NCBI RefSeq assembly: GCF_016097555.1
Contig: NC_054708.1
Span: 2,794,339 to 2,858,338 of the forward strand
Direction of reading: 5' to 3'
Length of the DNA stretch: 64,000 nucleotides
From: Gigantopelta aegis
Lineage: Eukaryota > Mollusca > Gastropoda > Neomphalida > Peltospiridae
Shown here: piece after piece, positions 1 through 63,550 of the stretch
How the letters are laid out: each line of letters opens with the position of its first letter
How positions within the stretch are numbered: position 1 is the stretch's first letter
Notes under the pieces: model-generated
The model's input: only the letters and a program-made list of their open reading frames with translations
Databases searched by the model: none
What the model was told of the DNA's origin: nothing
Position numbers and translations under genes: made by a program

Positions 1-951
1 CATACTTCAGTGGTAGAAAACCCGTGTCAGATGACAGGTTCAAATATACTTCAGTGGTAGAAAACCCGTGTCAGATGACAGGTTCAAATATACTTCAGCG
101 GTAGAAAACCCGTGTCAAACATACTTCAGTGGTAGAAAACCCGTGTCAGATGACAGGTTCAAATATACTTCAGTGGTAGAAAACCCGTGTCAAACATACT
201 TCAGTGGTAGAAAACCCGTGTCAGATGACAGGTTCAAATATACTTCAGCGGTAGAAAACCCGTGTCAAACATACTTCAGTGGTAGAAAACCCGTGTCAGA
301 TGACAGGTTCAAATATACTTCAGCGGTAGAAAACCCGTGTCAGATGACAGGTTCAGCGGTAGAAAAATATACTTCAGCGGTAGAAAACCCGTGTCAAACA
401 TACTTCAGTGGTAGAAAACCCGTGTCAGATGACAGGTTCAAATATACTTCAGCGGTAGAAAACCCGTGTCAAACATACTTCAGTGGTAGAAAACCCGTGT
501 CAGATGACAGGTTCAAATATACTTCAGTGGTAGAAAACCCGTGTCAGATGACAGGTTCAAATATACTTCAGCGGTAGAAAACCCGTGTCAAACATACTTC
601 AGTGGTAGAAAACCCGTGTCAGATGACAGGTTCAAATATACTTCAGTGGTAGAAAACCCGTGTCAGATGACAGGTTCAAATATACTTCAGTGGTAGAAAA
701 CCCGTGTCAGATGACAGGTTCAAACATACTTCAGTGGTAGAAAACCCGTGTCAGATGACAGGTTCAAATATACTTCAGTGGTAGAAAACCCGTGTCAGAT
801 CGGTAGAAAACCCGTGTCAAACATACTTCAGTGGTAGAAAACCCGTGTCAGATGACAGGTTCAAATATACTTCAGTGGTAGAAAACCCGTGTCAGATGAC
901 AGGTTCAAATATACTTCAGTGGTAGAAAACCCGTGTCAGATGACAGGTTCA
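1..951. repeat. Tandem array of 44-bp and 31-bp units
   Basis: Two related units alternate irregularly: a 44-bp unit containing CAGTGGTAGAAAACCCGTGT followed by CAGATGACAGGTTCAAATA, and a 31-bp unit in which the last part is replaced by CAAACA. The array starts before the window and breaks off near 951. Open frames across it are by-products of the repeat. Confidence 0.95.
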
Positions 952-954
952 AGT

Positions 955-1222
955 TTATTTTGTTTAATCACACCACTAGACCACATTGATTAATTGATCA
1001 CCGGCTATTGGATGTTAGACATACGGTAATTTTTATATAGGCTTATAGTCTGAAAGGAAACCCGCTACATTTTATATGCACTTTCCCACAGATATAGCAG
1101 TCGTGGAGCACTGGTTGAGACCGTGGAAAACCAATCAGAGAATGGGTTCACTGGGGATTCGATCCTGCGACCAAAGCACCTCAAGCGAGCGTTCTACCTA
1201 CTGAGCTAGATCCCGCCCACAA
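955..1222 (-). mobile_element. SINE-A copy, diverged
   Basis: Read on the minus strand this begins with a tRNA-like head with A-box TAGCTCAGTAGG and B-box GGATCGAATCC, passes through a body ending in CTATTGGATGT-type sequence (plus strand near 1010), and ends near the array at 951. It lies just downstream of the FABP exon at 1376-1451. Confidence 0.85.
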
Positions 1223-1311
1223 AAGACGTACAGGTACGTTAAAACACATGGTAGCGGCTGTTGGAAGAATCAGCCAAACATAGGTCAGTAGACATCAGAA
1301 AGACAGGCATC

Positions 1312-1366
1312 AAAGCGGACGGACGGACGGACGGACAGGTACAGACGGACAGATAGATAGACATAA
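1312..1366. repeat. GGAC/GATA simple repeat
   Basis: Repeats of GGAC grade into GATA; they sit ten bases inside intron 1 of the FABP gene whose first exon follows. Confidence 0.85.
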
Positions 1367-1375
1367 TGTACTCAC

Positions 1376-1451
1376 CTAAAGCATCGCTAAATTCGTCAAA
1401 GCCGGTTGTTTGTTCTGGCATGAGTTCCCACCGACCCACATAGTTATCCAT
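1376..1451 (-). CDS. Fatty-acid-binding protein (FABP), second gene: first coding exon only
   Basis: This exon encodes the N-terminus of an intracellular lipid-binding protein, a small cytosolic beta-barrel that carries fatty acids or retinoids. The 25 codons give MDNYVGRWELMPEQTTGFDE and then FSDAL, with the family's G-x-W start motif and the F-D-E-F helix lead-in. The exon ends in phase 1 at a GTGAGT donor. It is exactly 76 bp, the same length and phase as exon 1 of the complete FABP gene at 13.75-24.8 kb, and the peptides align without gaps, so the two are tandem paralogues on the same strand. The remaining exons must lie left of position 1. The start is the only Met before the motif. A TATAAATA on the minus strand at 1906-1913 is a possible but distant promoter element. 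Family assignment is firm; ligand is unknown. Confidence 0.88.
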
Positions 1452-2662
1452 AGCGATTCAAAGAGCCACAAACAATCGCAAACAACTACAGCGGAGTTTT
1501 TTCGTTCCTCGTCCGACGTCGTCTGTTTTATGTCAAGTTGCGCTTCTCACTAGAGCCGCAGTAATGATTTCCTAGTTATTGCCGGCGTAAAACAAATACA
1601 ATCGCTTGTTGGCTACATAGACTTGGCTTAAGTCTTAATTTCCAGTTAATATTCCATGTCGGGAATGGGGTATGTTCGCAGGAGTGACGCCTTGGTTACT
1701 GACACATGTTAATGTCTAGTGATTCCAGGAAGTAGGCAGGATTACGCTCATCCTCTTCGCTTCTTTTCACGTTTCCTTCCTCCCAGACAAGCAGTCTGCT
1801 TGGCACCAAACTGAGTCAAGTCTACGACCGGCGTGTATCACGCTAAGTGGCTTTCAGAAAGTTAATATTTGCATCAATAGGCCAGCGGCCGCGGCTGGGC
1901 TTGAATATTTATAGGACATCGTTTATGCCAGTTTGGCGTTATCGATGAATAATGAATATTCTTTTTTATATGTCTATATATTCATGTCTCAAACAGATTG
2001 TTAGTGTAACCATTTTACACGATCTTTAAGACTCACTCTGTAACATTCAGCTGTGGGGTCAGTGTTAGTGGGTCACAGAGTCGGTACCAAACCATATATA
2101 CGGCGTAATGAATTTGTTTGCCGTCATAAACCACAACACTGCCGACGAAGACGAGGAAACCACACGGTCATAGACTAGCATACAAGCATTTTTTAAAACA
2201 TAATTTTTTATGACATTTTTAATGTAAAATGAAGCAAATGGACCTAATTAAAAGAAAAGCACACAAAATCTAATAATATTTCATCATAAATCTGTTCAGC
2301 ATAGATGTAAATATGACACGTCAGTGGATATTCCATAGGCCGATTTCGCAAATTTGCAAAAAGCGTCCCCTCCTCGCCAAAGCAAGATATAATAATTTAA
2401 CAAAAAACTAAAATTAGCACAATTTTCTTTGTTCTCATAACTAGTTATCCTCCAAGTTTTAATGTGTTTGGTTAAACCGTGTATTTTTAATTATTAAGAA
2501 AATGTGTTGCCAGTCTGCCGAAACTGTCCACAGCCGGGTACAGAAACACAGAAATGTTGGAAAATATTATACTGTTGCCACATACTGACAATCACTTTAC
2601 AACTAATATGTCTTATCGAAAATATTATTATGTAGTCTTTGCATTTATTAATATAAAATACA
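1452..2662. other. Upstream spacer of the left FABP gene
   Basis: Low-copy, increasingly AT-rich sequence. I see no convincing coding exon or repeat. It should contain the promoter and any 5' untranslated exon of the FABP gene at 1376-1451. Confidence 0.5.
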
Positions 2663-2873
2663 ACAGGCCCGTAGGAACTGGGGAAGGGCGGGCCTAGGGA
2701 CTTGTTCTCTATCACACACTCTAGGATGAAAATGTGTTTTAAATTTTCACTACTCTGCATAAATAAAGATGTAATAAAGATAAAAAATCTAGTTTGTATC
2801 CCTTACTGGAGACTGTATCCCCCCCCCCCCCCCCCCCCCATACACACTTCAAATATCGTTCCTACAGGCCGGT
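2663..2873. mobile_element. Short TIR element with poly-C core
   Basis: The ends are inverted copies of a 16-bp motif (ACAGGCCCGTAGGAAC on the left; the right end reads ACCGGCCTGTAGGAAC on the minus strand, 14 of 16 identical). A poly-C run of about 19 sits at 2820-2839. No coding capacity. Confidence 0.5.
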
Positions 2874-3299
2874 ACAAATGTAGATAATATGTAGAGGGTG
2901 AGGTTAGGAACCAGTTCCTTTTATCTTTAGGATTTTGTAATCATGATTTCAGGTAGTTTGCTCCACATACTGACATAAAACACATTTGTTATATATTGGA
3001 ACAAAATATAAATAATTACAATATATCCAGTGTTATTTTCTTTAATCATTCATGGAGGAAGAAGGAAGTCCTGATGAAAATATACTACAGGTAAAATATA
3101 TTACAGGTAAAACAAAATAATATATGATGCTTATTCCATGTGGTAACTATTGTTAATTTTGCTTTAAATTGCTAGATGCCAAAAGTGATTAATTATATTA
3201 TTTTATGGTAACAGTCGAAAATTAGACGACCAATTGTTTCAACCTCTGCCAAAGGTACCAGGTTTTCTGCCAGAAAATAAGTTGAGGGTACGTAATAAA

Positions 3300-3423
3300 A
3301 CAGGCCCGTAGGAACTTCGGGGTGTTATCACATTAATTTTTGCCATTGTAACCAAAATCTGATGTAGAGTTTATACCCGGTCCGTCAGTGCCCCACCTCC
3401 CAAAGTCGTTCCTATGGGCCTGT
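3300..3423. mobile_element. Short TIR element, same family
   Basis: It starts ACAGGCCCGTAGGAAC and ends with the inverse motif differing at one base, so the 16-bp termini match at 15 positions. At 124 bp it is a minimal MITE-like copy of the same family as 2663-2873. Confidence 0.55.
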
Positions 3424-4756
3424 AAAAACTAAATATATTCAAAGGAGTATATTGGGTGGTTATAGGTTTGAAATGTGTGTTTTTTATTGAACATTTTATT
3501 TCACGCACTTTTACAAATTTTAAACAGCAATTATGTTAATATAATCTATCGAAAAAATAAAACATTATATACATCAAATGTATATACATTAATTTCTGAG
3601 ATGTTTTAGTACATACATGTAAGTTTACCCTCCGCACCCTCTGGCAGAAACCCAGGTTAGGTATTAAAACAATTATTTGGTGTAGAGTATTTTTAATATG
3701 ACATACAGAAAGCATTAAAAAGTACAATTTTATTATGCTTTAATAATCGACATTAGCTTTAAAATTATTTAACCATCATTCCTTCTGGCCAGAGTACATA
3801 CGTTGTTCCTGCCAAAGTGTTAGCATTTTAATTTTAATGACAATATACTGAACTGACGATAAACATTGTTAACGTTTTAAAGGTGGTTTGTTATGAGGTT
3901 AACAAACCAACTAGATCAAGAGACGTTAGTATGGAATCGTTATGGGCTGTCGGTAAAAATTAATTTGGTAATTATAGGTAAATAAATGTGAAGTTTAAAT
4001 ATTCGTATGTGAACAAATTGCAATACCTTTATTTAATGTATATCTTAAGTACATACTTGTTTTAATTTTCACATTGTAAATGTACCATAACCTGCTGTAT
4101 TTAGTTGGTGTAAAGCCTGTTCGACGACAATAATGCATCCATGTTTTAAAACAACTTTCGTTTTTTTGGAAATCGAAACCATGATGTTAGCCGTTTCTTG
4201 GGATGCATTGCTGTTACTGTTTCAGTTAAACACTGCGCAGTTAACCATCATATAATTACGTTGACAGTATATAATAACACTAATTATCTTGTAAATTAAA
4301 TTTCCGATAAACCTGGAGACAAAAAAAGAAATAAAATAAAAGACGATTAAAAGGCACAACCAAAGAATCAACACGTGTACTGGTATTGCTTGGTAACTCT
4401 CACCGATGACGTATTGCCTCGCTTTCGTTCAGATCTATGCATAATCCCGCCCACTTCTGTTTTTACTCCAAACCTAAGACTTCAGCTGACCGGTGCCTCG
4501 CAGTGAGCCAGGCGTTAGAGTAATGCGGTCTTTGACGCTGACTTAATCCATTACACACTACATGTCTTTTGGTGTCCAGTTTCCTTTAACCCTCTCCTTA
4601 GTGGATCTGTTCGTAATAATATTTTCCGTTCAGTCAGTTTTCATGGTTGTTTTTAAAAAGGGCGTGGTGTGTGCTTTAATATTTGTGAAACTTACTAATT
4701 GACAAAAGTAATGTAGCAGTAGCTAGTTTTTCTCTATTAAAAGTAAAAGTTTGTTT
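3424..4756. other. AT-rich spacer
   Basis: AT-rich sequence without recognisable coding exons, RNA genes or clear repeats. Confidence 0.5.
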
Positions 4757-5054
4757 TGTTGGACGACACCACTAGAGTACATCGATTTATTAATCATCGG
4801 CTAATGGATGTCAAACATTTGATAATTTCGACATATAGTCTTTGAAAAGAAACCCTCTACATTTTTTCATCAGTAGCAAGGGATACTGTATATGCACCAT
4901 CCCATAGACAGGATAGCACATGCCACGGCCTTTGATATACCAGTCGCGGTGCACTGGCTGGAACGAGAAACAGCCCAATGGGCCCACCGACGGGGATCGA
5001 TCCCACACCGACCGCACATAAGGCGAGCGCTTTACCACTGTGCAACGTCCGCCC
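4757..5054 (-). mobile_element. SINE-A, near full length
   Basis: On the minus strand a tRNA-like head (A-box near TGCACAGTGG, B-box GGATCGATCCC) is followed by the conserved body (CCCATTGGGCTGTTTCTCG, then TATATCAAAGGCCGTGGCAT) and the GTGTCG tail at 4757. Its head runs straight into the 56-bp array at 5044. Confidence 0.9.
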
Positions 5055-5370
5055 CCTTCAGTTAGATGTATGCAGGGACAGGTCCACACAATACTGTGCT
5101 ACGTCCGCCCCCTTCAGTTAGATGTATGCAGGGACAGGTCCACACAATACTGTGCAACGTCCGCCCCCTTCAGTTAGATGTATGCAGGGACAGGTCCACA
5201 CAATACTGTGCTACGTCCGCCCCCTTCAGTTAGATGTATGCAGGGACAGGTCCACACAATACTGTGCTACGTCCGCCCCCTTCAGTTAGATGTATGCAGG
5301 GACAGGTCCACACAATACTGTGCTACGTCCGCCCCCTTCAGGAAGAAGTATGCAGGGACAGGTCCACAAA
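5044..5370. repeat. 56-bp tandem array seeded by a SINE end
   Basis: About six copies start at 56-bp steps with ACGTCCGCCCCCTTCAGTTA. The ACGTCCGCCCCC part is the inverted head of the adjacent SINE-A, so each unit contains the SINE/flank junction. The last copy is diverged. Confidence 0.9.
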
Positions 5371-5394
5371 ATTATATAAGATCAGGTCTTAGTT

Positions 5395-5535
5395 TATTCA
5401 CTTTCATATAGACAGGACAGTACATACCACTGTGTTTGATTGCCAGTCGTTAGACACTTGTAGGGACGGAGGAAGTCCCGAGCCCATCATGGGTGGCCGA
5501 TCCTACAGCCTACTGCACCTAGGAGTTAATCGTGC
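5395..5535 (-). mobile_element. Degenerate SINE-A fragment
   Basis: Body motifs of SINE-A survive in diverged form on the minus strand (ATAGACAGGACAGTACATAC, then a CCAGTCG block). The ends are indistinct. Confidence 0.45.
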
Positions 5536-5546
5536 TCCAGTTGTTA

Positions 5547-7602
5547 GTTGAGTATAAATACAGTATGAGACATAGAGAATAATACATGAGTGGCCGTTAG
5601 ATAAATACAGTATGAGATTATAGAGAATAATACATGAGTGGCCGTTAGATAAATACAGTATGAGATATAGAGAATAATACACGAGTGGCCGTTAGATAAA
5701 TACAGTATGAGATTATAGAGAATAATACATCAGTGGCCGTTAGATAAAGACAGTATGAGATATAGAGAATAATACATGAGTGGCCGTTAGATAAATACAG
5801 TATGAGATATAGAGAATAATACACGAGTGGCCGTTAGATAAATACAGTATGAGATTATAGAGAATAATACATCAGTGGCCGTTAGATAAAGACAGTATGA
5901 GATATAGAGAATAATACATGAGTGGCCGTTAGATAAATACAGTATGAGATATAGAGAATAATACATAAGTGGCCGTTAGATAAATACAGTATGAGATTAT
6001 AGAGAATAATACACGAGTGGCCGTTAGATAAATACAGTATGAGATATAGAGAATAATACATAAGTGGCCGTTAGATAAATATAGTATGAGATATAGAGAA
6101 TAATACACGAGTGGCCGTTAGATAAATACAGTATGAGATATAGAGAATAATACACGAGTGGCCGTTAGATAAATACAGTATGAGATATAGAGAATAATAC
6201 ATCAGTGGCCGTTAGATAAATACAGTATGAGATAAATACAGTATGAGATATAGAGAATAATACATCAGTGGCCGTTAGATAAATACAGTATGAGATATAG
6301 AGAATAATACACGAGTGGCCGTTAGATAAATACAGTATGAGATATAGAGAATAATACATCAGTGGCCGTTAGATAAATACAGTATGAGATATAGAGAATA
6401 ATACACGAGTGGCCGTTAGATAAATACAGTATGAGATATAGAGAATAATACATCAGTGGCCGTTAGATAAATACAGTATGAGATATAGAGAATAATACAC
6501 GAGTGGCCGTTAGATAAATACAGTATGAGATATAGAGAATAGTACATCAGTGGCCGTTAGATAAATACAGTATGAGATATAGAGAATAATACACGAGTGG
6601 CCGTTAGATAAATACAGTATGAGATATAGAGAATAATACATCAGTGGCCGTTAGATAAATATAGTATGAGATATAGAGAATAATACACGAGTGGCCGTTA
6701 GATAAATACAGTATGAGATATAGAGAATAATACACGAGTGGCCGTTAGATAAATACAGTATGAGATTATAGAGAATAATACACGAGTGGCCGTTAGATAA
6801 ATACAGTATGAGATATAGAGAATAATACATCAGTGGCCGTTAGATAAATATAGTATGAGATATAGAGAATAATACACGAGTGGCCGTTAGATAAATACAG
6901 TATGAGATATAGAGAATAATACACGAGTGGCCGTTAGATAAATACAGTATGAGATATAGAGAATAATACATCAGTGGCCGTTAGATAAATACAGTATGAG
7001 ATATAGAGAATAATACACGAGTGGCCGTTAGATAAATACAGTATGAGATATAGAGAATAATACATCAGTGGCCGTTAGATAAATACAGTATGAGATATAG
7101 AGAATAATACACGAGTGGCCGTTAGATAAATACAGTATGAGATATAGAGAATAATACATCAGTGGCCGTTAGATAAATATAGTATGAGATATAGAGAATA
7201 ATACACGAGTGGCCGTTAGATAAATACAGTATGAGATATAGAGAATAATACACGAGTGGCCGTTAGATAAATACAGTATGAGATTATAGAGAATAATACA
7301 CGAGTGGCCGTTAGATAAATACAGTATGAGATATAGAGAATAATACATCAGTGGCCGTTAGATAAATATAGTATGAGATATAGAGAATAATACACGAGTG
7401 GCCGTTAGATAAATACAGTATGAGATATAGAGAATAATACACGAGTGGCCGTTAGATAAATACAGTATGAGATTATAGAGAATAATACACGAGTGGCCGT
7501 TAGATAAATACAGTATGAGATTATAGAGAATAATACACGAGTGGTCGTTAGATAAATACAGTATGAGATATAGAGAATAATACATCAGTGGCCGTTAGAT
7601 AC
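5547..7602. repeat. 47/48-bp tandem array, about 43 copies
   Basis: The unit contains GAGAATAATACACGAGTGGC followed by CGTTAGATAAATACAGTATG. Units differ mainly at CACGAG versus CATCAG and at GATATAG versus GATTATAG, and these variants recur in blocks, showing that groups of units were duplicated together. Short frames on the minus strand are by-products. Confidence 0.97.
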
Positions 7603-7943
7603 CATTTATCTCGCAACGAGTTGTTTCAAAATGAACGAAGGAAAGCGAGTTTGATACATTTTTAAACGAGTGGTAACTAACGGACACGAATGTATTATTC
7701 TATTTCTTACATATCCTCAAAAACTAGGTTTTAAGCAAATTTTAACATCTTTTTCGACTAAAAGTTATTTACAACCGTTGCACTTACAGCTAGCTATACG
7801 TTACAATGTAATCGATTTCCATCGTGTAGTTTTTCATTGGATGCATGGCAGTGGTGACCTGGTCGTCACCTAGGAGCAGCCAGTCGTATGTCTTGAAATT
7901 GTTAACACGTGCATGTGTTAACAACGCATGGTATTCTCACCAA
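7603..7943. other. Spacer with an inverted trace of the array unit
   Basis: No gene seen. Around 7660-7710 the words GAGTGGTAACTAACGG and GTATTATTCT look like a diverged, partly inverted copy of the 47-bp unit, possibly the far end of an element from which the array grew. Confidence 0.4.
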
Positions 7944-7952
7944 CGGGTGTGT

Positions 7953-8327
7953 CATCTTCATAAATCAAGGCTAATATTCGTTCCTCGTATTCAGCCTTGA
8001 TACATGTCGTCAAGAAATCGTGCCACAAAATGCTTAAATTTCATTGGATGCGATGAGATCTGATTGCAACGCTCCTTATAGATTCCCTTGTTATTGTAAA
8101 CAAAGACGGCAGCGTCAGCGTCCGGCGGATAATTTTTGATATTGCTTTCAAGATTGTCACATGTTACCGATGCTGTGATTGGTCAACGATGTCATCGTGT
8201 AAGGGACATAATCGGTATTACAAATTTTCTTCCAATAGAGGGCGCTAGTAGTGGATATCAGTAATCTTGACTACATATATCAAGGCTGAATACGAGGAAC
8301 GAATATTAGCCTTGATTTATGAAGATG
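7953..8327. mobile_element. MITE with long TIRs and 9-bp TSD
   Basis: The element begins CATCTTCATAAATCAAGGCT and ends with the inverse of it; the inverted repeats are about 50 bp and nearly perfect. It is flanked by the direct repeat CGGGTGTGT (7944-7952 and 8328-8336). A 9-bp TSD with long TIRs is typical of Mutator-like (MULE) elements. It has no coding capacity. The same family occurs at 53928-60017, where it is split by a LINE. Confidence 0.9.
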
Positions 8328-8359
8328 CGGGTGTGTAAGATATAGTTATATTAACTAGA

Positions 8360-8634
8360 ATACATGGGCTGGACGAAGACCAGTATACGTGCTAAATTGC
8401 TCGCTAGGATCGATCCCGTGGGTGGGCCTATTGGGCTACTTCCTGTTGCAGCCATGGCACCATGACTGGCATATCAAAGGCCGTGGTGTGTGCTATCATC
8501 TCTATGGGATGGTGCATATGAAAGATCCCTTGCTATCTATGACTACATGTCAAAATTACCAAATGATTGACATCCAATAGCCGATAAATCAGTGTGCTTT
8601 AGTGGTGTCGTTAAACAAAACAAACTTTAACTAG
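8360..8634 (+). mobile_element. SINE-A with damaged head
   Basis: The B-box region (GGATCGATCC), the body with TATCAAAGGCCGTGGTGTGT and the tail GTGTCGTTAAACAAAACAAA are clear; the A-box part is eroded. Confidence 0.88.
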
Positions 8635-9258
8635 TATACAAATTCAGGTTAATGAATGATTTTGTGTTTGTTTTAAAAAATAATAATAATTAATTTTAGA
8701 AACTACGTTTTCTTCATAGCACTCTAGTGAACTATAATGGACAGAGTTTCGTTGATATAGCAGTGCCGGTGTATTTTAACACTACAGCATTCTTTCTGCG
8801 ACTCTGGATCGTATTAAAATCCACTAACACGTGCTGGCGCGTCGCCCACACTCAGTATCCCCATCACGTGGCTTTTATGAGGAAATCGCCTAGTGGCGCT
8901 GCTTCATTACCTCTCTGCAGTTTGGCATCATTGGGCCAATTCGGTTTAACATGGAACCATTACTGTCTGTTCACAGAGGAATTTCAAACCGGGACGTAGC
9001 AAGAACATGCATCACGTACATTCTCAGGATATTTAAATGTGTATTCCCCAAATAAACGTCAGCATTCATTATATATGTGTATAAAATATATGGCTGAGCT
9101 GTATTGGCTATTAGTAGTATTGCATATCTAATCCGTAACCACATCGTGTGGTGATGTCTTCTCTAAACCTCTAACACATACCAGTACTAAGTTATATGTT
9201 CGCTTTTGCTCATCACAAAGTATTGCTTGAAAATCGTAAACACAGATGTTGATAACTT
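8635..9258. other. Spacer
   Basis: A 90-codon open frame at 8727-8999 has no recognisable motif and no splice context; I do not call it a gene. Nothing else is supported. Confidence 0.4.
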
Positions 9259-52639: not shown

Positions 52640-52735
52640 CTGTATGTCAAAATTACCAAATGTTTGACATCCAATAGCCGATGATTAAAAAATCACTATG
52701 CTCTAGAGGTGTTGTTAAACAAAAAATCTTTTTGT
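52640..52735 (+). mobile_element. SINE-A 3' fragment
   Basis: TGTCAAAATTACCAAATGTT, TTTGACATCCAATAGCCGAT and a GTGTTGTTAAACAAA tail; the head is absent. Confidence 0.85.
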
Positions 52736-53167
52736 TGTCTTTTCTTTTGTTGTTGTTTTGGGGGTTTTCTGTTGTATAAAATAATTACAAATGTGTAAAA
52801 AAAACAAGACCAATCAACAATCAAATTGAATAAAATGGTGTATTTGTGATACTCCGACGTTTTACAGGACGTTCCGACATCAAGATGATGGATGCCAAAA
52901 TGAACATCTTGTTTATCCTTCAGAGCAAATACTCGTAGTCTGGATTGCGTTAGAAATAAATTAAATATAAACATAACTCGCAGATATCAAAACTGTAAAC
53001 TCGTTTCAATGGTCACGTCTCAATACCATTTAAAACACTGGTTCTTTTTACTAAACAGATAAGGAGAGAGGACAAAGAGAGGTCCCCTGGAGGAGAGGTT
53101 AAATATAAAACCATTTGATCCTTCTAACTGTAACCAATAGCCTATCCAGTGGCAGAGGAGATTTCAT
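52736..53167. other. Spacer before the nested transposon stack
   Basis: No gene is seen; the last 100 bp may be degraded LINE sequence leading into the reverse-transcriptase fragment. Confidence 0.4.
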
Positions 53168-53561
53168 ATGCCAATGACACTTTGCTTGACTTCTTCGTGG
53201 AATTTTATTGAAAAAGTTTTAGATTTGTTTAATATTCAAATACTAGTATCTATAACAAATTGGATAAACACTTTATATCATAATTCAACATCAAGAATAC
53301 TCCAAAATGGATTTTTATCTGAAAGTTTTAAACTAGAATGTGGATGTAGACAAGGTGGTCCTCTCTTTCCATATGTTTTATAATATGTGTAGATATTCTC
53401 GCAATATCAAGTAGAATTTTCCGACAAAATAAATGTTTTTAAAATAGGTGGAGAGGAATTCGTCTTATCACAATATGCAGACGACACAAGTTTAATCCTA
53501 GATGGACATCACAAATCTCTTGAACACAACTTAATAATGTTACATTTATATTCTAATGTTG
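53168..53561 (+). pseudogene. L1/Tx1-like LINE, reverse-transcriptase part (outermost layer, left piece)
   Basis: The plus strand reads WNFIEKVLDLFNIQ, ITNWINTLYHNSTSRILQNG, LECGCRQGGPLFPYVL and, after a stop and frame change, QYADDTSLILDGHHKSLEHN: the fingers and palm of a non-LTR reverse transcriptase with its YADD catalytic box. It stops at YSNV where a SINE-A is inserted. The expected continuation (CGLKINYSKSKVIWIG) is found 7.1 kb further on at 60689, so both are halves of one element. It has internal stops and is dead. Confidence 0.88.
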
Positions 53562-53863
53562 GACGTAGCCCAATGATAAAGTGCACGCCTGATGCGCGAT
53601 CGGTCTAGGATCGATCCTCGTCGGTGGGCTCATTGGGATATTTCTCGTTCCAGCCAGTGTTCCACGACTGGTCTATTAAAGGCCGTAATATATGCAATCC
53701 TGTCTGTGGGATGGTGCATATAAAAGATCCCTTGCTACTAATGGAAAATTTTAGCGGGTTTCCTCTCTATGATTGTGTCAAAATCACCATATGTTTGACA
53801 TTCAATAGCCGATGATTAATAAATCAATGTCCTCTAGTGGTGTCGTTAAACAAAACAAACTTC
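53562..53863 (+). mobile_element. SINE-A inserted in the LINE (second layer)
   Basis: GGACGTAGCCCAATGATAAA through TTTGACATTCAATAGCCGAT to GTGTCGTTAAACAAAACAAA. Its tail AAAACAAACTTC (53852-53863) was itself the target of the next insertion and reappears at 60677-60688. Confidence 0.92.
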
Positions 53864-54717
53864 TTTTTTGTATTATTATTCCCATTTTTATTGACATGAT
53901 ATCCACACACAGATGTATACAGTGAATCATCTTCATAAATCAAGACTAATATTCGTTCCTCGTATTCAGCCTTGATACATGTAGTGAAGATTACTGATAT
54001 CCACTACTAGCGCCCTCTATTGGAAGAAAATTTGTAACACCGATTATGTCCCTTACACGATGACATCGCTGACCAATTACAGCATCTGTAATATGTGACA
54101 ATCTTGAAAGCAATATCAAAAATTAACCGCCCAAACTTTTTTTTTAACATATCGTGACAAACACGACACGTTTCCACGGACGCTGACGCTGCCATCTTTG
54201 TTTACAATAACAAGGGAATCTATAAGGAGCGCCCCTGCGTGTGCATTAACCTCACCGTGGTGCAGGAGTGAACATTCTTTTATAGAATGGCCAATAAATG
54301 CACAACTCCTCGTATGAGGCACCTTGTTTGCCGTGAGGTGCAACCCGTGAAAATGGATGATGGGATCCTGGTGATTGAGTTGGGGCATATCTGCGGGTAT
54401 GACTTCTGACAAGACATCACTTTGGCCCGGAATTCATATAGACGGGTGTTCAGGAAGGCCCGACCTGATCAATCGGCTGGTCACGTCAAGCTCGAGGGCA
54501 TACAACCCTTTGCTTTGTTACATCTCCAAAGAACAAACATTGTTTCAATGGTCATATGTTTTGTTGCTCTTGGGGCGGTGGCTAGGGTCAATCAGGTGAT
54601 TTATTATTTCTTATTGCCTGAGTATATCAACCATGTATCCCTGGCATGATTGTCTGCTGGTTATCCGCAGCATCATGTCCCCTTGTTGGACTCCGTGGTG
54701 GGTGGGGAGCATGAGTG

Positions 54718-55734
54718 ATGAATTATATGAACTATATTATGGCTCAAACAACAACACTAACTTTTGATGGGACCCTGAAAAGTGTCCACACCGAAGTTTC
54801 GGACTCTTCATCATCAGATGAAGAGTCTACGACATTGTTTGTAAAGAAATCCAGAGTGATTTCTTCAAAAACCTGGCCAAGGTTTCTTGTCATCGGGTCT
54901 ACTGATGATGAGGCCTTGAAGAAATTGTCGCCTTTTGCGATTCAAAAAGGGCTCGAAGGCTTGGCCGGCGAGCCTAAAAGTGTTAAGAAATTAAGGAGTG
55001 GCTCATTGTTGGTCGAATGCTCAACAGAGAGTCATTCCAGAAATCTTCTTAAATCAAAACATTTATGTAATATTTCCATCAAAGTCAGTCCTCACGCTAG
55101 CCTTAATTCCTCTAAAGGAGTGGTTCGGTCTAGGGATTTGGAAGGAGTCAGTGAGGATGACATTTGCGAAAATCTCTCCTCACAAGGTGTCACATCAGTC
55201 AAGCGGATTAAAGTCCGTCGGAACAATGAACTGGTTTCGACGAACACCTTAATCCTTACATTTAATATGCCAACCCTTCCAAATTCTGTCAAAGCAGGTT
55301 ATTTAAATATACCTGTCGTGCCGTATATTCCTAACCCTTTACGATGTTTCAAATGCCAAAGATTTGGACATGGACAAAATACATGCCATAACAGATTGAC
55401 ATGTGCTCGTTGTGGTCAATTTGACCATGACAGCAAGGCATGTCAAAATGATATGGCATGTACCAACTGTAAAGGGAAACACTTTGCGTACTCGCGAGAG
55501 TGCCCAAGGTGGAAAGTGGAAAAAGAGGTACAACATGTGAAAGTTGAAAAACACCTCTCTTTCACAGAGGCTAGAAAGGTTGTGGAAGCATCAACACCTC
55601 CAGCAGCTGGTAAATCGTATGCCGCTGCTGTGAAGGTATCTACAACCAATATAGCCATTCAGACAGACCTTACATGGCCTAATGGTGAGGACAAATTTAA
55701 GAAGACTTTAAAAGCAAACTACAAAAGCTGCTAA
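54718..55734 (+). CDS. LINE ORF1: zinc-knuckle nucleic-acid-binding protein
   Basis: 338 residues if started at the Met at 54718. The N-terminus is Ser/Glu-rich (SDSSSSDEES); residues about 50-195 resemble the RRM-like folds of I-type ORF1 proteins (FLVIGSTDDEALKKLSP, SGSLLVECSTESHSRNLLKS); residues about 210-255 carry three Cys/His knuckles, CFKCQRFGHGQNTC, CARCGQFDHDSKAC and a variant CTNCKGKHF. ORF1 protein packages the element's RNA. It ends at KANYKSC, but downstream in another frame comes a Ser/Pro-rich segment (GSSSGEPGPSKPPPRKDLKK, then NNPFEAL) typical of an ORF1 C-terminus, so a one-base frameshift near 55720 may have shortened it (inference). Confidence 0.85.
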   Translation: MNYMNYIMAQTTTLTFDGTLKSVHTEVSDSSSSDEESTTLFVKKSRVISSKTWPRFLVIGSTDDEALKKLSPFAIQKGLEGLAGEPKSVKKLRSGSLLVECSTESHSRNLLKSKHLCNISIKVSPHASLNSSKGVVRSRDLEGVSEDDICENLSSQGVTSVKRIKVRRNNELVSTNTLILTFNMPTLPNSVKAGYLNIPVVPYIPNPLRCFKCQRFGHGQNTCHNRLTCARCGQFDHDSKACQNDMACTNCKGKHFAYSRECPRWKVEKEVQHVKVEKHLSFTEARKVVEASTPPAAGKSYAAAVKVSTTNIAIQTDLTWPNGEDKFKKTLKANYKSC

Positions 55735-56023
55735 TAAACAAGTTTCCAAATCATCCCAGGTGTCTTTGGATTCTACCAAACCATCAAGAGGTTCATCTTC
55801 TGGGGAGCCAGGTCCCAGTAAGCCTCCGCCACGGAAAGACCTTAAAAAACCCAATAAGGATTCTTCTTCAGGACGTCTGAAGAAATATGAAAAACAGTTG
55901 GTTCCGACCAACAATCCTTTTGAAGCTTTGACTGATGTGGATGATCAAATGGATATAATGCCAGATGATTGTCCACAATCACAAAGATCTGGAAAGCCAA
56001 AGATAACTCCGTACTTCCCCCTA

Positions 56024-59000
56024 ATGGCTAATTCAGTCATTCAGTGGAACTGCCGTGGGCTTAGGCCCAATTTTGATGAATTAAGTCTTTTAATTCAAAA
56101 ACATAATTCTCTTGCAGTGTGTCTTCGGGAAACTTTCTTGAAGGACACTGATCATATTACTATGAGAGGATTTAACCTCTATCATAAATTTCAAGAAACT
56201 GAAAATAGAGCATCTGGGGGTGTTTCCATTCTTGTTAATGAAAACTTTCCTCAGAGTATAGTGACATTAAATACCAATTTACAAGCTGTGGCTGTAAAGG
56301 TCACGGCTCATAAAACTATAACTCTGTGTTCAGTTTATTTACCTCCTCGAAACCATTTTGATTTTAATTCAAGAGATCTTCAAGATCTCATTAATCAGCT
56401 CCCTACTCCCTTCATTGTTATGGAAGATTTTAATGGTCACCACACTTTGTGGGGATGCGAGGATGTAAATATTAGAGGAAAACAATTGGAAGACTTAATT
56501 CTCAAAAATGACTTACTTTTATTCAATGATAAAAGTCATACATATTTTCATTCTGCAAGTGGTTCTTTCACTTCTATAGATTTAACCCTTTGTAGTCCTT
56601 CACTTTTTCTTGATCTCTCCTGGAAAGTTGGTTCAGACCCTTGTGGTAGTGACCACTTTCCCATTATTTTGGAGAATGATGGACCACCATCACTTGAAAG
56701 GGTTCAAAGGTGGAAGTTGGCGAAGGCAAATTGGGGTCAGTTTCAGCATCTGTGCAGCACTCGTCTGCAACAATTTGTCATTACGGATGTTGATGATCCC
56801 ATATCTTTGTTCACTTCTATCTTGAAGGATATTGCAGATGAAACTATTCCTAAGACTTCGGCAGTGCCAAAGCGTTTCAATAAACCATGGTTTAATGATA
56901 CGTGCAAAGATGCATTCAAAGAGCGAAACAGGTTGCTTGAGCGGTTCAAACGTGAACCTACAGCAGACAACCTGAATGCATTTCGTATTGCTAGGGCTAA
57001 GGCTCGCAGAGAGATTAGACGGAGTAAGAAATCATCTTGGAGATCTTTTGTCTCCAAGTTGAATTCACAAACATCAGTGAAATCTGTCTGGAATAGGATC
57101 CGTAAACTCAAAGGTAAAGAATCCAGTAATACAGTTCATCATTTGTCTGTCAATGACACGGATGTCACGTCTCATCGTGACATTGCCAATGCATTGGCAG
57201 ACAACTTTTCTCATAACTCATCTTCTGCTTTCAGTACAGATGCTTTTACATCTGTCAGAACTAAAGCTGAAAAGCAGTCCATTAATTTTTCATCCGAAAA
57301 TGCTGAAGTGTACAACAGGCATTTCTCTATGGAGGAATTGCAGGATGCTCTTCGTAGAACCCATGATACTTCAGTAGGACCGGATGAAATTCATTATCAG
57401 TTATTAAAACATTTACCTGAATCATCTTTGATGGTTCTTTTGAATATTTATAATAACATCTGGATTTCTGGAGACTTTCCTTCTGATTGGAGGAAAGCTA
57501 TTATCATTCCTATTCCCAAGCCTGGTAAGGATCCAACCAATCCTACTAGTTATCGCCCTATCGCTTTGACAAGTTGCATTGTAAAACCATGGAACGCATG
57601 ATCAATCGTCGACTTGTCTGGTATCTCGAATCTCACAAATTGCTCACTAACGTGCAATGTAGGTTCAGATCTAGACGTAGCACGGTTGATCATCTTGTTA
57701 GATTTGAAACGTTTTGTAGGGAAGCTTTCATCCATAATCAGCACTTGGTTTCAGTGTTTTTTGATTTGGAGAAGGCTTACGATACCACGTGGAAGTATGG
57801 GATTTTAAACGACCTTCATGGCATGGGCCTTAGAGGTCGCCTTCCTGTTTTTATATCTCAATTTTTAAGAGATAGATCTTTTAAAGTCCGGGTGGGGTCG
57901 ACTTTGTCCGACATTCACCCACAGGAGATGGGTGTACCTCAAGGTAGCATCCTGTCTGTAACTTTATTTTCTGTGAAAATTAACAGCATCACCCAGTGTT
58001 TAACACCTGGTGTGGATTGCTCGTTATATGTCGATGATTTTCAGATTTGCTATAGATCGTCCAATATGAGTATCATTGAGCGTAAGTTGCAGCTTTGTTT
58101 GAATAAACTTCATCAATGGGCAACTGACAATGGTTTTCGATTCTCAAAGGCAAAAACGGTTTGTATGCATATCTGCCAGAAAAGAGGTCTCCACTTAGAC
58201 CCACAGTTGTTTTTGGACAAAAATCCAATTCCAGTTGTGGAGGAGACTAAATTTCTGTGGGTTATATTTGACAGGAAGCTATCTTTTGTGCCCCATCTCA
58301 AATATGTTAAAAAGAAGGGCTTGAAAGCTCTCAATATTTTAAAAGTTATTGGTAATACAGAATATGGAGGAGACCGAAAGGTTATGCTCCGTCTGTATAG
58401 ATCTCTTGTAAGGTCTAAACTAGATTATGGATGCATTGTGTATGGGTCGGCACGCAAGTCTTGCTTGCAGATGCTAGATCCTATACACAATCAGGGAATT
58501 AGACTTTGTCTTGGTGCATTTAGAACATCTCCTGTAGAGAGCCTGTACGTTGATGCACACGAACCTTGCAGTATGCTGCCAAGATTAAATCTTTACCAAC
58601 ACATCCAACACATGATGCGGTGTTTGATAACAAATATATGAAGTTGTTTGATGCAAGGCTGAATGCTATTCGTACATTTGGTCTTCGCATTAAGCGTTTT
58701 TTGTCGCTTTCTAACATTGATTTAACTGACACTTTGGAAACTCCTTCATATTTTGTTTTACCACCTTGGTGTATTATACCACCTATAATTGTGTTTCATC
58801 TTTCGCACCTAAAGAAAGATCGTACAGATGCTGTTGTGTACAAACAGTTTTTCATGGAAATTCAGGACAAGTACCGTGATTACATTCCTGTGTATACAGA
58901 TGGATCACGGGATGGGAATTCTGTGGCTTGTGCTACAGTTTTTCCATCAGACACAATACTTTCCATGCGACTGCCCGACTCAGCATCAATCTTTAGTGCT

Positions 59001-59684
59001 GAAGTTTGGGCAGTCATTAGAGCCTTAGAAGAAATCAAAGATTCAATAGCATCCAAATTTATTATTTTTACAGACTCACTTTCGTGTCTCCAAGCTTTAC
59101 GTAATATGAAGCTGGACCATCCCTTAATTGGGATGGTGATACGAAAGTGTGTCTTTTTATCTATTGCCAACAAAGATGTTGTATTTTGTTGGATGCCCAG
59201 CCATGTTGGCATCAGGGGCAATGAAAAGGCAGATTCAGCTGCCAAGTCTGCTTTGGATTTGCCTCATGCCAGGGTTGGTGTACCTTATACTGATTTTAAA
59301 AATAATATCAACCAATTTATCTTTTCGACTTGGCAACGTGATTGGGACGGTGAGATTGCGAGCAAGCTTCATGCTATCAAGCCAGTCTTGCGAGAGTGGC
59401 AGTCCTCCTATAGACAGTGCAGGAAGGATGAAGTAGTCTTGTGTCGTGCCCGCATCGGTCACACTCACTTGACCCATTCATTTGTCTTAAAGAAAGATCC
59501 TCCACCTCAGTGTGAGTACTGTCAGTGTACTCTGACGGTACGCCACATTTTGGTGGAGTGTAAGCATCTTCATGAAACTCGAAAAGATATTTTTGGTCAA
59601 AGTAATGTGATGGAATCATTTCGATTCCATCCAGAACGTATTTTACAATTTTTACGCGACACCGAGTTTTATTCTAAATTTTAA
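56024..59684 (+). pseudogene. LINE ORF2: endonuclease, reverse transcriptase and RNase H, frameshifted
   Basis: Start chosen at MANSVIQWNCRGLRPNF. The endonuclease (56024 to about 56680) shows QWNCRGL, SVYLPP, DFNGHHTLWG and GSDHFPI. The reverse transcriptase (about 57400-58330) shows PIPKPGKDPTNPTSYRPIAL, FFDLEKAYDTTWK, GVPQGSILS and the catalytic YVDD near 58027. RNase H (about 58890-59260) has YTDGS, SAEVWAV, FTDSLSC and NEKADSAAKSA, so all its acidic residues are present. A Cys/His motif (CEYCQCTLTVRHILVEC) lies near the C-terminus. Two lesions break the frame: a one-base change near 57580, before KTMERMINRRL, and a short deletion with frameshift near 58570. The endonuclease reads MEDFNG where the family usually has GDFN. 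Confidence 0.92.
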
Positions 59685-60187
59685 TTATATCTATCTGTGA
59701 TATTTGTATTTTTACACAGTCCTTTACACTGTGTTTTTATTTAACTGTTGAATTTTTATATTCATGTTGATCATAAAACAATTGTTTTTGCATTTACCAT
59801 TGTTTGACACCCAATAGCCGATGTATTTTACGTGCTGGGGTGTCGTTAAACATTCATTCATTCATTCATTCATTCATTCTATAAGGAGCGTTGCGATTCG
59901 TTGCAATCAGATCTCATCGCATCCAATGAAATTTAAGCATTTTGTGGCACGATTTCTTGACTACATGTATCAAGGCTGAATACGAGGAACGAATATTAGC
60001 CTTGATTTATGAAGATGACAGTGAATATGATGAAGAGATATTTAACTACATAAAAAAATAAAGTTGTTAAAGAGATATTTAGCTAAAAATCAAATATATG
60101 TGACTACTAATCCAACATACATGTATGAAAAATTCAAAAGGAGACCGAGAACATACTAAGTATCAAAACGAAGAGAAGAAATACAAT

Positions 60188-60643
60188 CTAAGTTTTAAAT
60201 AAGTTGTGACAAATTGACCAAAATTTTGTGAATTTATCATAATTGCACGCGGAAACGGCTGTTGCTTTTGTCACATAATAGTATTCAGTCAACTCTTTTT
60301 GGATCCATTTCAAACTGGGTACATGTGCATTGAAATGACTTTTAAATATTAAGTGTTTTGTAACAAGTACAATGGCATTAATGGGATCATTATTTCTGGT
60401 TTTAAAACCAAAAATTACATTTTCTTTATTAAATTTAATGTTGCTGCCTGTTTTTACATGAATCCAGTTCTGAATATCAGTCCCAATTGAGTTGACTAAA
60501 GTCCATTCCCAAAATAAATGGATAATTGTACCAAGTTCTAAATTACAAAAATTACACTTCGAACAAGAAATATAACCAATTTTATATAAATAGGTATTAA
60601 CAGGAAGTATATTATGAATTATTTTAAAATTAAACCAGCGCAA
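60188..60643 (-). pseudogene. LINE ORF2 C-terminus (zf-RVT region)
   Basis: MRWFNFKIIHNILPVNTYLY, then CSKCNFCNLELGTIIHLFWE: the Cys/His C-terminal segment that follows the reverse transcriptase in L1-type ORF2 proteins. 151 residues are open to the natural stop, but the catalytic domains are missing, so this is a truncated copy. Confidence 0.85.
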
Positions 60644-60688
60644 TTCACTATTATCAGTACAGCATAAAGGAATTATAAAACAAACTTC

Positions 60689-60880
60689 CTGTGGCTTGAA
60701 AATAAACTATTCGAAATCGAAAGTCATATGGATAGGCAGAAAACCAATACACCAAAGATGTCTATCATCATGTAAAATGGAAATTAGAATGGGTGCAGAA
60801 CAGTTTGAAGATGACTTAAAACAAATTATTGTAATCAATTTTGAAATCATAATAAATGAAATGAAAAAGTTAATAAAGAT
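60689..60880 (+). pseudogene. Outermost LINE, middle piece
   Basis: CGLKINYSKSKVIWIGRK resumes exactly where the 53168-53561 fragment was cut, then GAEQFEDDLKQIIVINF and MKKLIKI, up to the TIR element at 60881. Confidence 0.85.
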
Positions 60881-61578
60881 CAGGGGTCTATTTCACTAAA
60901 CATCGTAAGTTTACGTCTTCTACTAGCAGTTATACCGGTCGTGCGTTTACACGTGTCTGACGTCTATATCACTAACCATCGTAAGTTTACGTCTTCTACT
61001 AACAGTTATACCGGTCGTGCGTTTACACGTGTTTGACGTCTATATCACTAACCATCGTAAGTTTACGTCTTCTACTAGCAGTTATACCGGTCGTGCGTTT
61101 ACACGTGTTTGACGTCTATATCACTAAACATCGTAAGTTTACGTCTTCTACTACCAGTTATACCGGTCGTGCGTTTACACGTGTTTGACGTCTATATCAC
61201 TAAACATCGTAAGTTTACGTCTTCTACTACCAGTTATACCGGTCGTGCGTTTACACATGTTTGACGTCTATATCACTAAACATCGTAAGTTTACGTCTTC
61301 TACTACCAGTTATACCGGTCGTGCGTTTACACATGTTTGATGTCTATTTCACGTAGAAAATTGTATCATTACGGAATAAGCAGCATTTTAAAGATAAAAG
61401 AAAATGAAATATGTGTATTTCTAAGTATATTGGTTGACCTATAATAGTAATAAGAATTGTGGTTTAGTCGTAGATTTACGTTTACGTGTATAACAAGGCT
61501 TACGATGTTTAGTTTAGTCGTAGATTTATGTTTACGTGTATAACAAAGGCTTACTATGTTCTGTGAAGTTGGGCCCAG
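60881..61578. mobile_element. TIR element with 76-bp array, inserted in the LINE
   Basis: The left end GGGGTCTATTTCACTAAACA and the right end, inverted as GGGCCCAACTTCACAGAACA, share about 20 of the first 27 bases. Six 76-bp units start at 60901, 60977, 61053, 61129, 61205 and 61281 with CATCGTAAGTTTACGTCTTC, the motif of the left end itself. On the right two shorter inverted units (TCGTAGATTTACGTTTACGT, GGCTTACGATGTTTAG) occur at 61465-61560. LINE coding sequence is present on both sides. Confidence 0.75.
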
Positions 61579-61940
61579 GGCTATATAAATTGAATAGTCG
61601 TTTTTAAATATTTAATAATTCCTAAAATAACTCACCTATTAAATTCATTGCCAAACCCGCCAGAACAAACAATAAAACTGAAAATTTTACCTCAAAGCTA
61701 TTCAAACAGCGGCATTAAAATTATAAATATTTCGAATATTTTGAAGTTACTATAAAAATATGTGTACAAAAGCTTATTGCGTGTGGGGATTATTTTATCA
61801 AAATACAAATTAAGAAATTAAAAAAACTATTTTTGGAAAAATGTCACAGAGTTGGTGTTTAATTCAACAAAAACAAATCCCACAAAGCATAAATGAAATA
61901 ATCAGAATCAGTACTTGGTATAACAATAAAATAACTATTG
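61579..61940 (+). pseudogene. Outermost LINE, right piece
   Basis: THLLNSLPNPPEQTIKLKIL, NSGIKIINISNILKLL, then in another frame SWCLIQQKQIPQSI and STWYNNKITI, matching the same segments of the copies at 9.3 and 30.8 kb. It runs into the 94-bp array. Confidence 0.8.
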
Positions 61941-61944
61941 ACCA

Positions 61945-62975
61945 GAAACCAGCGGCAAATGTGTCTGACAAGGACCAGGTTCATTTGAATCATACTGAGG
62001 ACAAACACAAACAAATAGGTTACAATATCATCACACCGCGGTACGTGTGTCAGAGACAGACAGGGGGCCAGGTTCGTTTTAATCCTAGTTTACAACAAAC
62101 ACAAACAAATAGGTTACAACATCATCACACCACGGTACGTGTGTCAGAGACAGACAGGGGCCCAGGTTCGTTTTAATCCTAGTATAGAACAAACACAAAC
62201 AAATAGGTTACAATATCATCTCACCACGGTACGTGTGTCAGAGACAGACAGGGGCCCAGGTTCGTTTTAATCCTAGTCTAGAACAAACACAAACAAATAG
62301 GTTACAATATCATCTCACCACGGTACGTGTGTCAGAGACAGACAGGGGGCCAGGTTCGTTTTAATCCTAGTATAGAACAAACACAAACAAATAGGTTACA
62401 ATATCATCACACCGCGGTACGTGTGTCAGAGACAGACAAGGGGGTCAGGTTCGTTTTAATCCTAGTATAGAACAAACACAAACAAATAGGTTACAATATC
62501 ATCTCACCACGGTACGTGTGTCAGAGACAGACAGGGGGCCAGGCTCGTTTTAATCCTAGTATAGAACAAACACAAACAAATAGGTTACAATATCATCTCA
62601 CCACGGTACGTGTGTCAGAGACAGACAGGGGGCCAGGCTCGTTTTAATCCTAGTCTAGAACAAACACAAACAAATAGGTTACAATATCATCACACCGCGG
62701 TACGTGTGTCAGAGACAGACAGGGGGCCAGGCTCGTTTTAATCCTAGTCTAGAACAAACACAAACAAATAGGTTACAATATCATCACACCGCGGTACGTG
62801 TGTCAGAGACAGACAGGGGGCCAGGTTCGTTTTAATCCTAGTATAGAACAAACACAAACAAATAGGTTACAATATCATCACACCACGGTACGTGTGTCAG
62901 AGACAGACAGGGGGCCAGGCTCGTTTTAATCCTAGTCTAGAACAAACACAAACAAATAGGTTACAATATCATACG
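61945..62975. repeat. 94/95-bp tandem array, about 11 copies
   Basis: The unit contains CAAACACAAACAAATAGGTT, GGTACGTGTGTCAGAGACAG and GTTCGTTTTAATCCTAGTAT. The first copy is clearly older (more diverged) than the rest. Confidence 0.95.
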
Positions 62976-63339
62976 TCCAATGGATGTTAAAACGTGAACC
63001 ATTATTAAATACGACAACACCATCGACTGTTTTGGTATGTGTTTAATACGGCTATTCCTATATAATACACTGCTTCACATAATCGTCAACGTTTATAGAT
63101 TATGTAGCCCAATCTCCGCATTCTTACTGGAGTGCTGTGTCTATCTGACTTATATCATCTGTCTTCTCATATGTCTGAACCCATTCAATGGCATTCTTGC
63201 GTTGAGTCTGAAATACCAACAAAAACAAAACACTCAAGTATTGTGTTTGTATACATTATATTGTTATATTAAATTAAAAAGCACAACAACGGCAATTAAC
63301 CACGGCAATCGGCAATGCCGTGCATAGGCGTACGGGTTC
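62976..63339. other. Spacer
   Basis: No supported gene; a 96-codon frame has no motif. Near 63296-63325 the words CCACGGC and GCCGTG begin a series that recurs to 63790. Confidence 0.4.
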
Positions 63340-63550
63340 TCATTTTTGTAAAGGGGTGGAGGGTAGGGGCAGGCTGGCTTTTGTCTGAATTAAACGAAAA
63401 TGTCCGAATCTGGATAACAACATTTATTCATATTACCATTACTACCAAACAGCTATATAGGACTGCAGTCGAATCACTACTCATTTTTACATAGATTACA
63501 ACTAATTCTGAACGTAGAATGATGGAAATATATGGTAAAAAGGTATCAAG
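63340..63550 (+). repeat. Dispersed repeat, copy 2
   Basis: Second copy of the 33215-33420 sequence (AAAATGTCCGAATCTGG, CATTACTACCAAACAG, AGATTACAACTAATTC). Confidence 0.65.

Follow-up and report, generated by a model that had tools for sequence, protein, structure and literature searches.

The analysed window is a 64-kb stretch of the 1.15-Gb genome of the gastropod Gigantopelta aegis (contig NC_054708.1, positions 2,794,339 to 2,858,338), and between about 53.1 and 62.0 kb it holds a nest of transposable elements. An old fragment of a long interspersed nuclear element (LINE), of L1/Tx1 kind, is interrupted by a short interspersed nuclear element (SINE); the SINE is followed by a second, inverted LINE lodged in its tail, this LINE contains a miniature inverted-repeat transposable element (MITE), and the MITE contains a LINE of I type (I-LINE), at whose 5' end we identified a putative ribozyme of the hepatitis delta virus (HDV) type. 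An earlier interpretation made from the letters alone, the sequence-only reading, had described the five layers, and its element types and nesting order were upheld; a further insertion, at 60884-61575 in the outer LINE, had been overlooked. The features, in window positions, are as follows.

53186..53559, + strand: outer LINE (L1/Tx1 kind), left piece, reverse transcriptase (RT) up to ...LYSNV; from 19 other genomic copies
53560..53863, + strand: SINE inside the outer LINE; ends from 16 fetched copies
53852..53863, no strand: left copy of the 12-bp duplication AAAACAAACTTC; direct read, entirely SINE tail by SINE family comparison
53864..60678, - strand: second LINE, inverted, L1/Tx1 kind, 5'-truncated, with its A-rich 3' end at 53864; from family copies
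53919..53927, no strand: left copy of the 9-bp duplication ACAGTGAAT; direct read
53928..60017, + strand: MITE with 64-nt terminal inverted repeats; from inverted-repeat comparison and family copies
54219..54231, no strand: left copy of the 13-bp duplication TCTATAAGGAGCG; direct read
54232..59877, + strand: I-LINE, both ends complete, frames broken; from copy alignments and open reading frame (ORF) analysis
54232-54306, + strand: predicted HDV-like ribozyme fold at the I-LINE 5' end; Rfam RF02682 below threshold, 39 copies
54715..55734, + strand: I-LINE ORF1 frame, with CCHC-like knuckles by eye
55712..57601, + strand: I-LINE frame with an apurinic/apyrimidinic (AP)-type endonuclease domain; PF14529 1e-22, PF03372 1.3e-10
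57550..58641, + strand: I-LINE frame with RT; PF00078 1.2e-25
58554..59684, + strand: I-LINE frame with RNase H; PF00075 9e-12
59796..59852, + strand: I-LINE 3' tail, related to the SINE tail (53786-53852) and to a 262-bp short family; from sequence comparison
59878..59890, no strand: right copy of TCTATAAGGAGCG; direct read, with an opening TC that may instead belong to the (ATTC)n tail
60018..60026, no strand: right copy of ACAGTGAAT; direct read
60679..60690, no strand: right copy of AAAACAAACTTC; direct read
60691..60883, + strand: outer LINE, second piece (CGLKIN...), ending in CAG; from family-copy alignments
60884..61575, + strand: overlooked MITE with imperfect inverted ends, inside the outer LINE; from outer-LINE copies and copies of its own family
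61579..61950, + strand: outer LINE, third piece; from family-copy alignments

A direct read of the window confirmed that the 12-, 9- and 13-bp duplications claimed earlier are exact and stand at the junctions proposed, with a length of 11-13 bp for TCTATAAGGAGCG, since its initial TC could belong to the (ATTC)n tail. They put the events in order and do not date them, so that 'ordered' is the right word for the nest that the sequence-only reading had called 'dated'. Continuity was checked by aligning natural family copies from the same genome across the insertion points, instead of removing the layers in silico. For the outer LINE, scoring covered 40 of 467 candidates, and 19 copies from other loci were fetched; in 16 of these 19, the stretch ending at 53558-53561 directly abuts one starting at 60692-60696 according to BLAST (matches starting inside 60881-61599 or outside 53.1-62.1 kb were omitted), a 17th copy (L051) is continuous across the SINE site by eye, and L052 and L065 diverge before it. 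One family copy, L060, carries a single open frame of 566 codons that runs to the end of the fetched stretch and passes through both interruptions, in agreement with the proposed coding continuity from YSNV to CGLKIN. For the second LINE (40 of 277 candidates scored, 19 fetched copies compared), both sides of the MITE site lie in order and within about 35 bp of each other in 17 of 19 copies, while L014 and L019 diverge just downstream of it. All 19 fetched copies of the MITE at 53928-60017 (40 of 983 first-look candidates scored) are uninterrupted at the I-LINE site, where their two matching stretches overlap as expected for a 13-bp duplication. Emptied sites out of line with their families, named beforehand as the outcome that would speak against the nest, are thus not what the natural copies showed. 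The anatomy of the nest, its order and the continuity of its parts with family copies are plain from these alignments.

Little of the second LINE and the MITE is their own sequence: 53864-53927 and about 60018-60678 for the former, of which the 39 other scored copies are 89-95% identical, and 53928-54231 plus 59891-60017, about 431 bp, for the latter, with 40 scored family copies at 97-100%. The 64-nt terminal inverted repeats of the MITE are 97% complementary. Other MITE copies also carry 9-bp duplications, exact in 12 of 19, with one mismatch in 5 and in neither form in 2. Long inverted repeats together with a 9-bp duplication are hallmarks by which we take this MITE to be of the Mutator-like (MULE) type. 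The SINE (40 of 8821 first-look candidates scored, 16 copies fetched; best other copy among those scored, 92%) closes with AAACAAACTTC; its head bears motifs that by eye resemble the A and B boxes of RNA polymerase III (pol III) promoters, and ARAGORN found no tRNA in it. A second SINE 3' fragment lies just upstream of the nest at 52645-52746 and is 81% identical to 53776-53877.

Both older LINEs are of L1/Tx1 kind, L1 and Tx1 being taken together in an assignment that rests on similarity searches without a tree. The RT of the second-LINE copy L012 matched human LINE-1 ORF2 chains at E 8e-30, against 6e-10 for an R2 protein, and it also matched the window pieces of the outer LINE in order, with 52% identity over 176 aa to the outer-LINE copy L060 and 39% over 119 aa to the left piece in the window. 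A tblastn search with the second LINE's RT found this left piece at E 7e-22, and a Pfam search of the short outer-LINE pieces gave no match. No family match was found upstream of the left piece (53186). At the other end, the outer LINE breaks off at 61950, next to a tandem array of 94-bp units, and the family sequence goes on: family copies reaching about 1500 bases past the searched piece found no match past the array (61975-62972), except for a stretch of L057 at 63320-63537, the sole match beyond the array, which is out of line with the outer LINE.

The overlooked MITE is flanked by a 3-bp CAG duplication (60881-60883, 61576-61578). Both sides of its site lie in order at one locus in 14 of 19 outer-LINE copies, with a gap of 35 nt in L057 and L066, the copies whose listed alignments extend as far as the junction. 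Its family yielded 2910 first-look candidates (40 scored), and CAG or CTG stands by eye at both ends of 6 of the 10 fetched copies (L144, L147, L148, L150, L151, L153); in the remaining 4 it is lacking or unreadable. In the window, the left part of this MITE occurs as six 76-bp repeats and its right end is doubled; readable family copies hold the left part once. The six-unit array could possibly represent the seed of a satellite arising from a MITE. Many minisatellite arrays are present throughout the window.

Divergence provides a measure of order independent of the nesting. Family trees were built with 19 (outer LINE), 16 (SINE), 19 (second LINE), 19 (MITE) and 7 (I-LINE) other copies, all of which passed the length filter. 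In that order, the terminal branches of the window copies are 0.146, 0.071, 0.038, 0.018 and 0.012, and their private substitutions amount to 25/359 (6.96%), 9/303 (2.97%), 11/646 (1.70%), 4/304 (1.32%) and 6/569 (1.05%); both series fall in nesting order. Among the other copies, terminal branches have medians of 0.014, 0.034, 0.036, 0.004 and 0.014, again in that order, so that the value for the outer LINE includes subfamily distance. Because the copies were chosen by score, the branch values are ranks and not dates.

That the locus arose by insertions that were successive and independent of one another seems to us close to certain. An L1/Tx1-type LINE fragment would already have been at the locus when a SINE entered its reverse transcriptase gene; a second L1/Tx1-type LINE family would then have inserted, inverted, into the SINE tail through target-primed reverse transcription. 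Near the 3' end of this LINE, a MITE moving by cut and paste would have landed with a 9-bp duplication, and lastly the I-LINE would have entered the MITE by the same target-primed mechanism as the second LINE. In an event apart from this series, a different MITE would have inserted into the outer LINE, part of it expanding to a tandem array. The enzymology of these steps is what knowledge of the element classes suggests. Several points weigh against this account. No duplication of the SINE was recognisable in the window copy when it was sought against family empty sites, so the SINE step rests on interruption, although other SINE copies do carry duplications (e.g., L072, and L078 with one mismatch). 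With 4 and 6 private sites, the ages of MITE and I-LINE are inseparable, and the long branch of the outer LINE is partly subfamily distance, most of the compared copies being 20% away and mutually close. Family copies were the best-scoring ones rather than a random sample, and the evidence base is a single genome assembly.

An assembly chimera of unrelated repeats could be suspected, since all the elements are high-copy (277 to 8821 first-look candidates) and such sequences are where assemblies err; yet a chimera leaves the three exact junction duplications unaccounted for, and it sits badly with an outer LINE that is continuous with its family and a divergence order that is monotone, which makes it very improbable. 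Part of the stack might instead have travelled as one unit, such as the MITE with the I-LINE as cargo, because the I-LINE lies between MITE ends and a composite of this kind could be mobile in principle. We consider this hardly credible: the I-LINE occupies that place in 0 of 19 other fetched MITE copies, the two elements are each dispersed independently, and inside the MITE the I-LINE is flanked by a duplication of its own. Successive insertion remains our account of the nest.

The innermost element carries predicted AP endonuclease, RT and RNase H domains together, the domain set of the I superfamily, to which we assign it on this basis. In molluscs, PMC10294476 gives only Nimb and Ingi for this superfamily, beside an unknown clade. 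ORF1 had no Pfam match at E 0.01, and a solved-structure search with the RT returned one weak unrelated match only (E 0.53). The element had been called full-length, which holds for its ends and not for its frames. These change near 57.58 and at 58.57-58.60 kb, the latter through a deletion of about 29 bp near 58.57 kb relative to 34 of 39 other scored copies; another change near 55.72 kb may be natural. Of 39 other copies compared at the 5' end (the best of 934 candidates), 7 (L086, L092, L100, L106, L114, L115, L116) are inserted in another I-LINE, as the 28 nt in front of their first base also consist of I-LINE sequence, and 2 of 7 fetched I-LINE copies (L002, L005) hold an insertion. Nesting is common in this genome, and the nest is a tidy but ordinary locus whose rarity had been overstated. 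The insertions of L106 and L116 lie at nearly the same place of their host I-LINEs (at the equivalents of window positions 56761 and 56760), and the equivalent of 59164 is the insertion point of both L092 and a short element in L002; preferred insertion sites within the I-LINE are possible.

At the 5' end of the I-LINE, the first bases may form a double pseudoknot. In element numbering, the modelled helices are P1 1-7/31-37 (CCCCUGC/GCAGGGG), P2 9-16/66-73 (8 bp), P3 18-20/28-30 (3 bp) and P4 42-47/53-58 (6 bp), with the joining strand GCCAAUA and a C in J4/2; one pair of P1 is mismatched in the window copy. This helix order and the GC.AA joining strand are those of the HDV family. In all 39 other copies the I-LINE starts at this one base, preceded by flanks that differ from copy to copy, a result that is partly selected in that the copy query itself began there. 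Thirty-five of these copies start with CC, 3 with CT and 1 with TT; P1 is exact in 32 and GGCCAAT is present in 38. Standard pairs fill 98.0% of the pair cells, against at most 58.6% when the partners are slid. An initial, loose descriptor of the ribozyme also matched AT-rich and simple repeats and was replaced by a strict one, composed after the fold was seen. Over 285 kb on both strands, leaving out L001, L009, L029 and L049 as pieces of the window itself, the strict descriptor matched only the window copy and four copies of a short element; it had no match in 768 kb of Markov sequence.

Four short-element copies (L002, L005, L015, L032) were the further strong matches, at 72-80 bits, when a covariance model of the I-LINE fold was run on 65 sources; three weak matches in L063:2607-3227 (14-20 bits) were degraded and were not counted. 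Each strong match heads a short element whose remainder is I-LINE 3' end. The element comprises a ribozyme head, the I-LINE tail and (ATTC)n (L005:275-550; L124-L143), with 88% identity to the 5' 74 nt and 87% to 157 nt of the 3' end of the I-LINE. This 262-bp family gave 378 first-look candidates (40 scored, 20 fetched). All 20 fetched copies have end repeats of 7-16 bp with varied sequences, and the 262-nt core is identical in 13 of them, which, the fetched copies being among the best-scoring, indicates a young set and gives no age for the family as a whole. As in the window I-LINE, the duplication of 14 of the 20 starts with TC, TTC or ATTC and overlaps the (ATTC)n tail, and pairing between tail and target during priming is plausible. 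With a predicted 5' ribozyme fold, the 3' end of an autonomous LINE and duplications of its own, the 262-bp element would qualify as a short internally deleted element (SIDE). Its P2 helix reads GUGCUGU/ACAGCAC, against GUGCAUU/AAUGCAC in the I-LINE, so that two pairs are doubly changed with pairing retained; these compensatory changes occur in all four copies, two of which have lost the outermost P2 pair. They were seen on an alignment fitted to the model, and the complementary strands can also be read directly.

On this structural model, an HDV-like ribozyme probably cuts the 5' end of the I-LINE free of read-through transcripts. The competing explanation, that the 5' structure is only a conserved 5' untranslated region or promoter element, draws on several observations that count against the ribozyme. 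The Rfam match to RF02682 (27.2 bits; E 0.099 in a scan of 11 kb and E 0.0027 in a 301-base scan) favours the ribozyme by its position, with a start at 54234, 2 nt from the first base of the I-LINE. Its score does not: 27.2 and 26.8 bits fall below the curated gathering cut-off of 44, and the same 11-kb scan gave a 24.3-bit match to a CRISPR repeat family that is evidently chance and shows how little such scores mean apart from position. Of five further sources put to Rfam, only L088 matched, and no match was reported for L002 and L115, which likewise have the fold or its 5' end. Within the I-LINE family, no pair had changed on both sides in 19 sequences. The folding energy is unremarkable against shuffles (z -1.9, 9/200 as good), and simple folding predicts P2 and P4 with a different middle helix, because a pseudoknot is outside such prediction. 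Finally, the descriptor was written post hoc and found 30 of the 39 I-LINE 5' ends. A mere leader or promoter element nonetheless leaves unexplained a fold that begins at the element's first base with HDV helix order and joining strand, a P2 rebuilt by double changes in 4 of 4 short-element copies, pairing far above the slid control and the lack of strict-descriptor matches in Markov sequence, and we regard it as unlikely.

The tail of the I-LINE also recurs in the SINE of the nest: within the window, SINE 53786-53852 matches the I-LINE tail at 59796-59852 over 29 nt at 90% and 14 nt at 100%, and the SINE copies L072 and L078 match that tail at 73% over 60-66 nt. LINE/SINE pairs with a common 3' tail are a known arrangement, and here the likeness extends over about 60 nt. 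Judging by this similarity, the SINE was probably mobilised by a LINE of the I-LINE's tail family; the true partner may be an older relative, because the SINE ends in AAACAAACTT and the I-LINE in (ATTC)n. Neither the shared tail nor the ribozyme had been noticed in the sequence-only reading. Taking these results together, we favour, with moderate confidence, a picture in which the I-LINE sets its own RNA free through an HDV-like ribozyme at the 5' end and in which two kinds of short element bearing its 3' tail parasitise it: a 262-bp element, active now or very recently and dispersed across the genome, and an older SINE with a putative pol III-type head.

Several known systems come close. Nested elements of large genomes, as presented in PMC6911290, likewise consist of elements within elements ordered by interruption; those are plant long terminal repeat elements, whereas LINE, SINE and MITE take part here in an animal genome, and otherwise nothing is new in kind. 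The trypanosome LINE L1Tc encodes AP endonuclease, RT and RNase H behind a 5' HDV-like ribozyme, and NARTc is its short, internally deleted partner with the same ribozyme, according to PMC4035085. The I-LINE and the 262-bp element share this architecture, by which, and not by sequence, the ribozymes are likened; the organism is different, and the tail here is (ATTC)n. For Drosophila R2 and R2/R1 SIDEs, PMC3414825 describes self-cleavage in vitro and compensatory helix changes. The 262-bp family resembles R2 SIDEs in architecture and in compensatory helix changes, with cleavage in the present case predicted from these features. It differs in that its presumed partner is an I-type LINE and many copies are identical, and in being dispersed in the genome, its 20 fetched copies having no single fixed target. 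Non-LTR retrozymes, short non-autonomous elements with a self-cleaving ribozyme, also occur in the mollusc Mytilus, as stated in PMC7761336; they are characterised by a hammerhead and circular RNAs, in contrast to the HDV-like fold and LINE 3' tail of the 262-bp family. Molluscan SINE families are cited in PMC10294476. No description of the present case was recognised from titles and the beginnings of abstracts, a search that left many journals uncovered.

The nest offers a clean internal calibration, in which nesting and, independently of it, divergence put five families into order. In importance it is outweighed by its by-product, the putative ribozyme and its short partner. If the ribozyme cleaves, the I-type LINE of this genome would join the elements that form their 5' ends by self-cleavage, and the 262-bp family would be a young, dispersed, ribozyme-dependent parasite of that LINE. 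Such dependence would make the family suitable for direct tests of what a LINE requires of the 5' and 3' ends of its templates. Should the I-LINE indeed release its RNA in this way and be parasitised by both the 262-bp element and the SINE, one LINE machinery would be serving templates with three different 5' ends.

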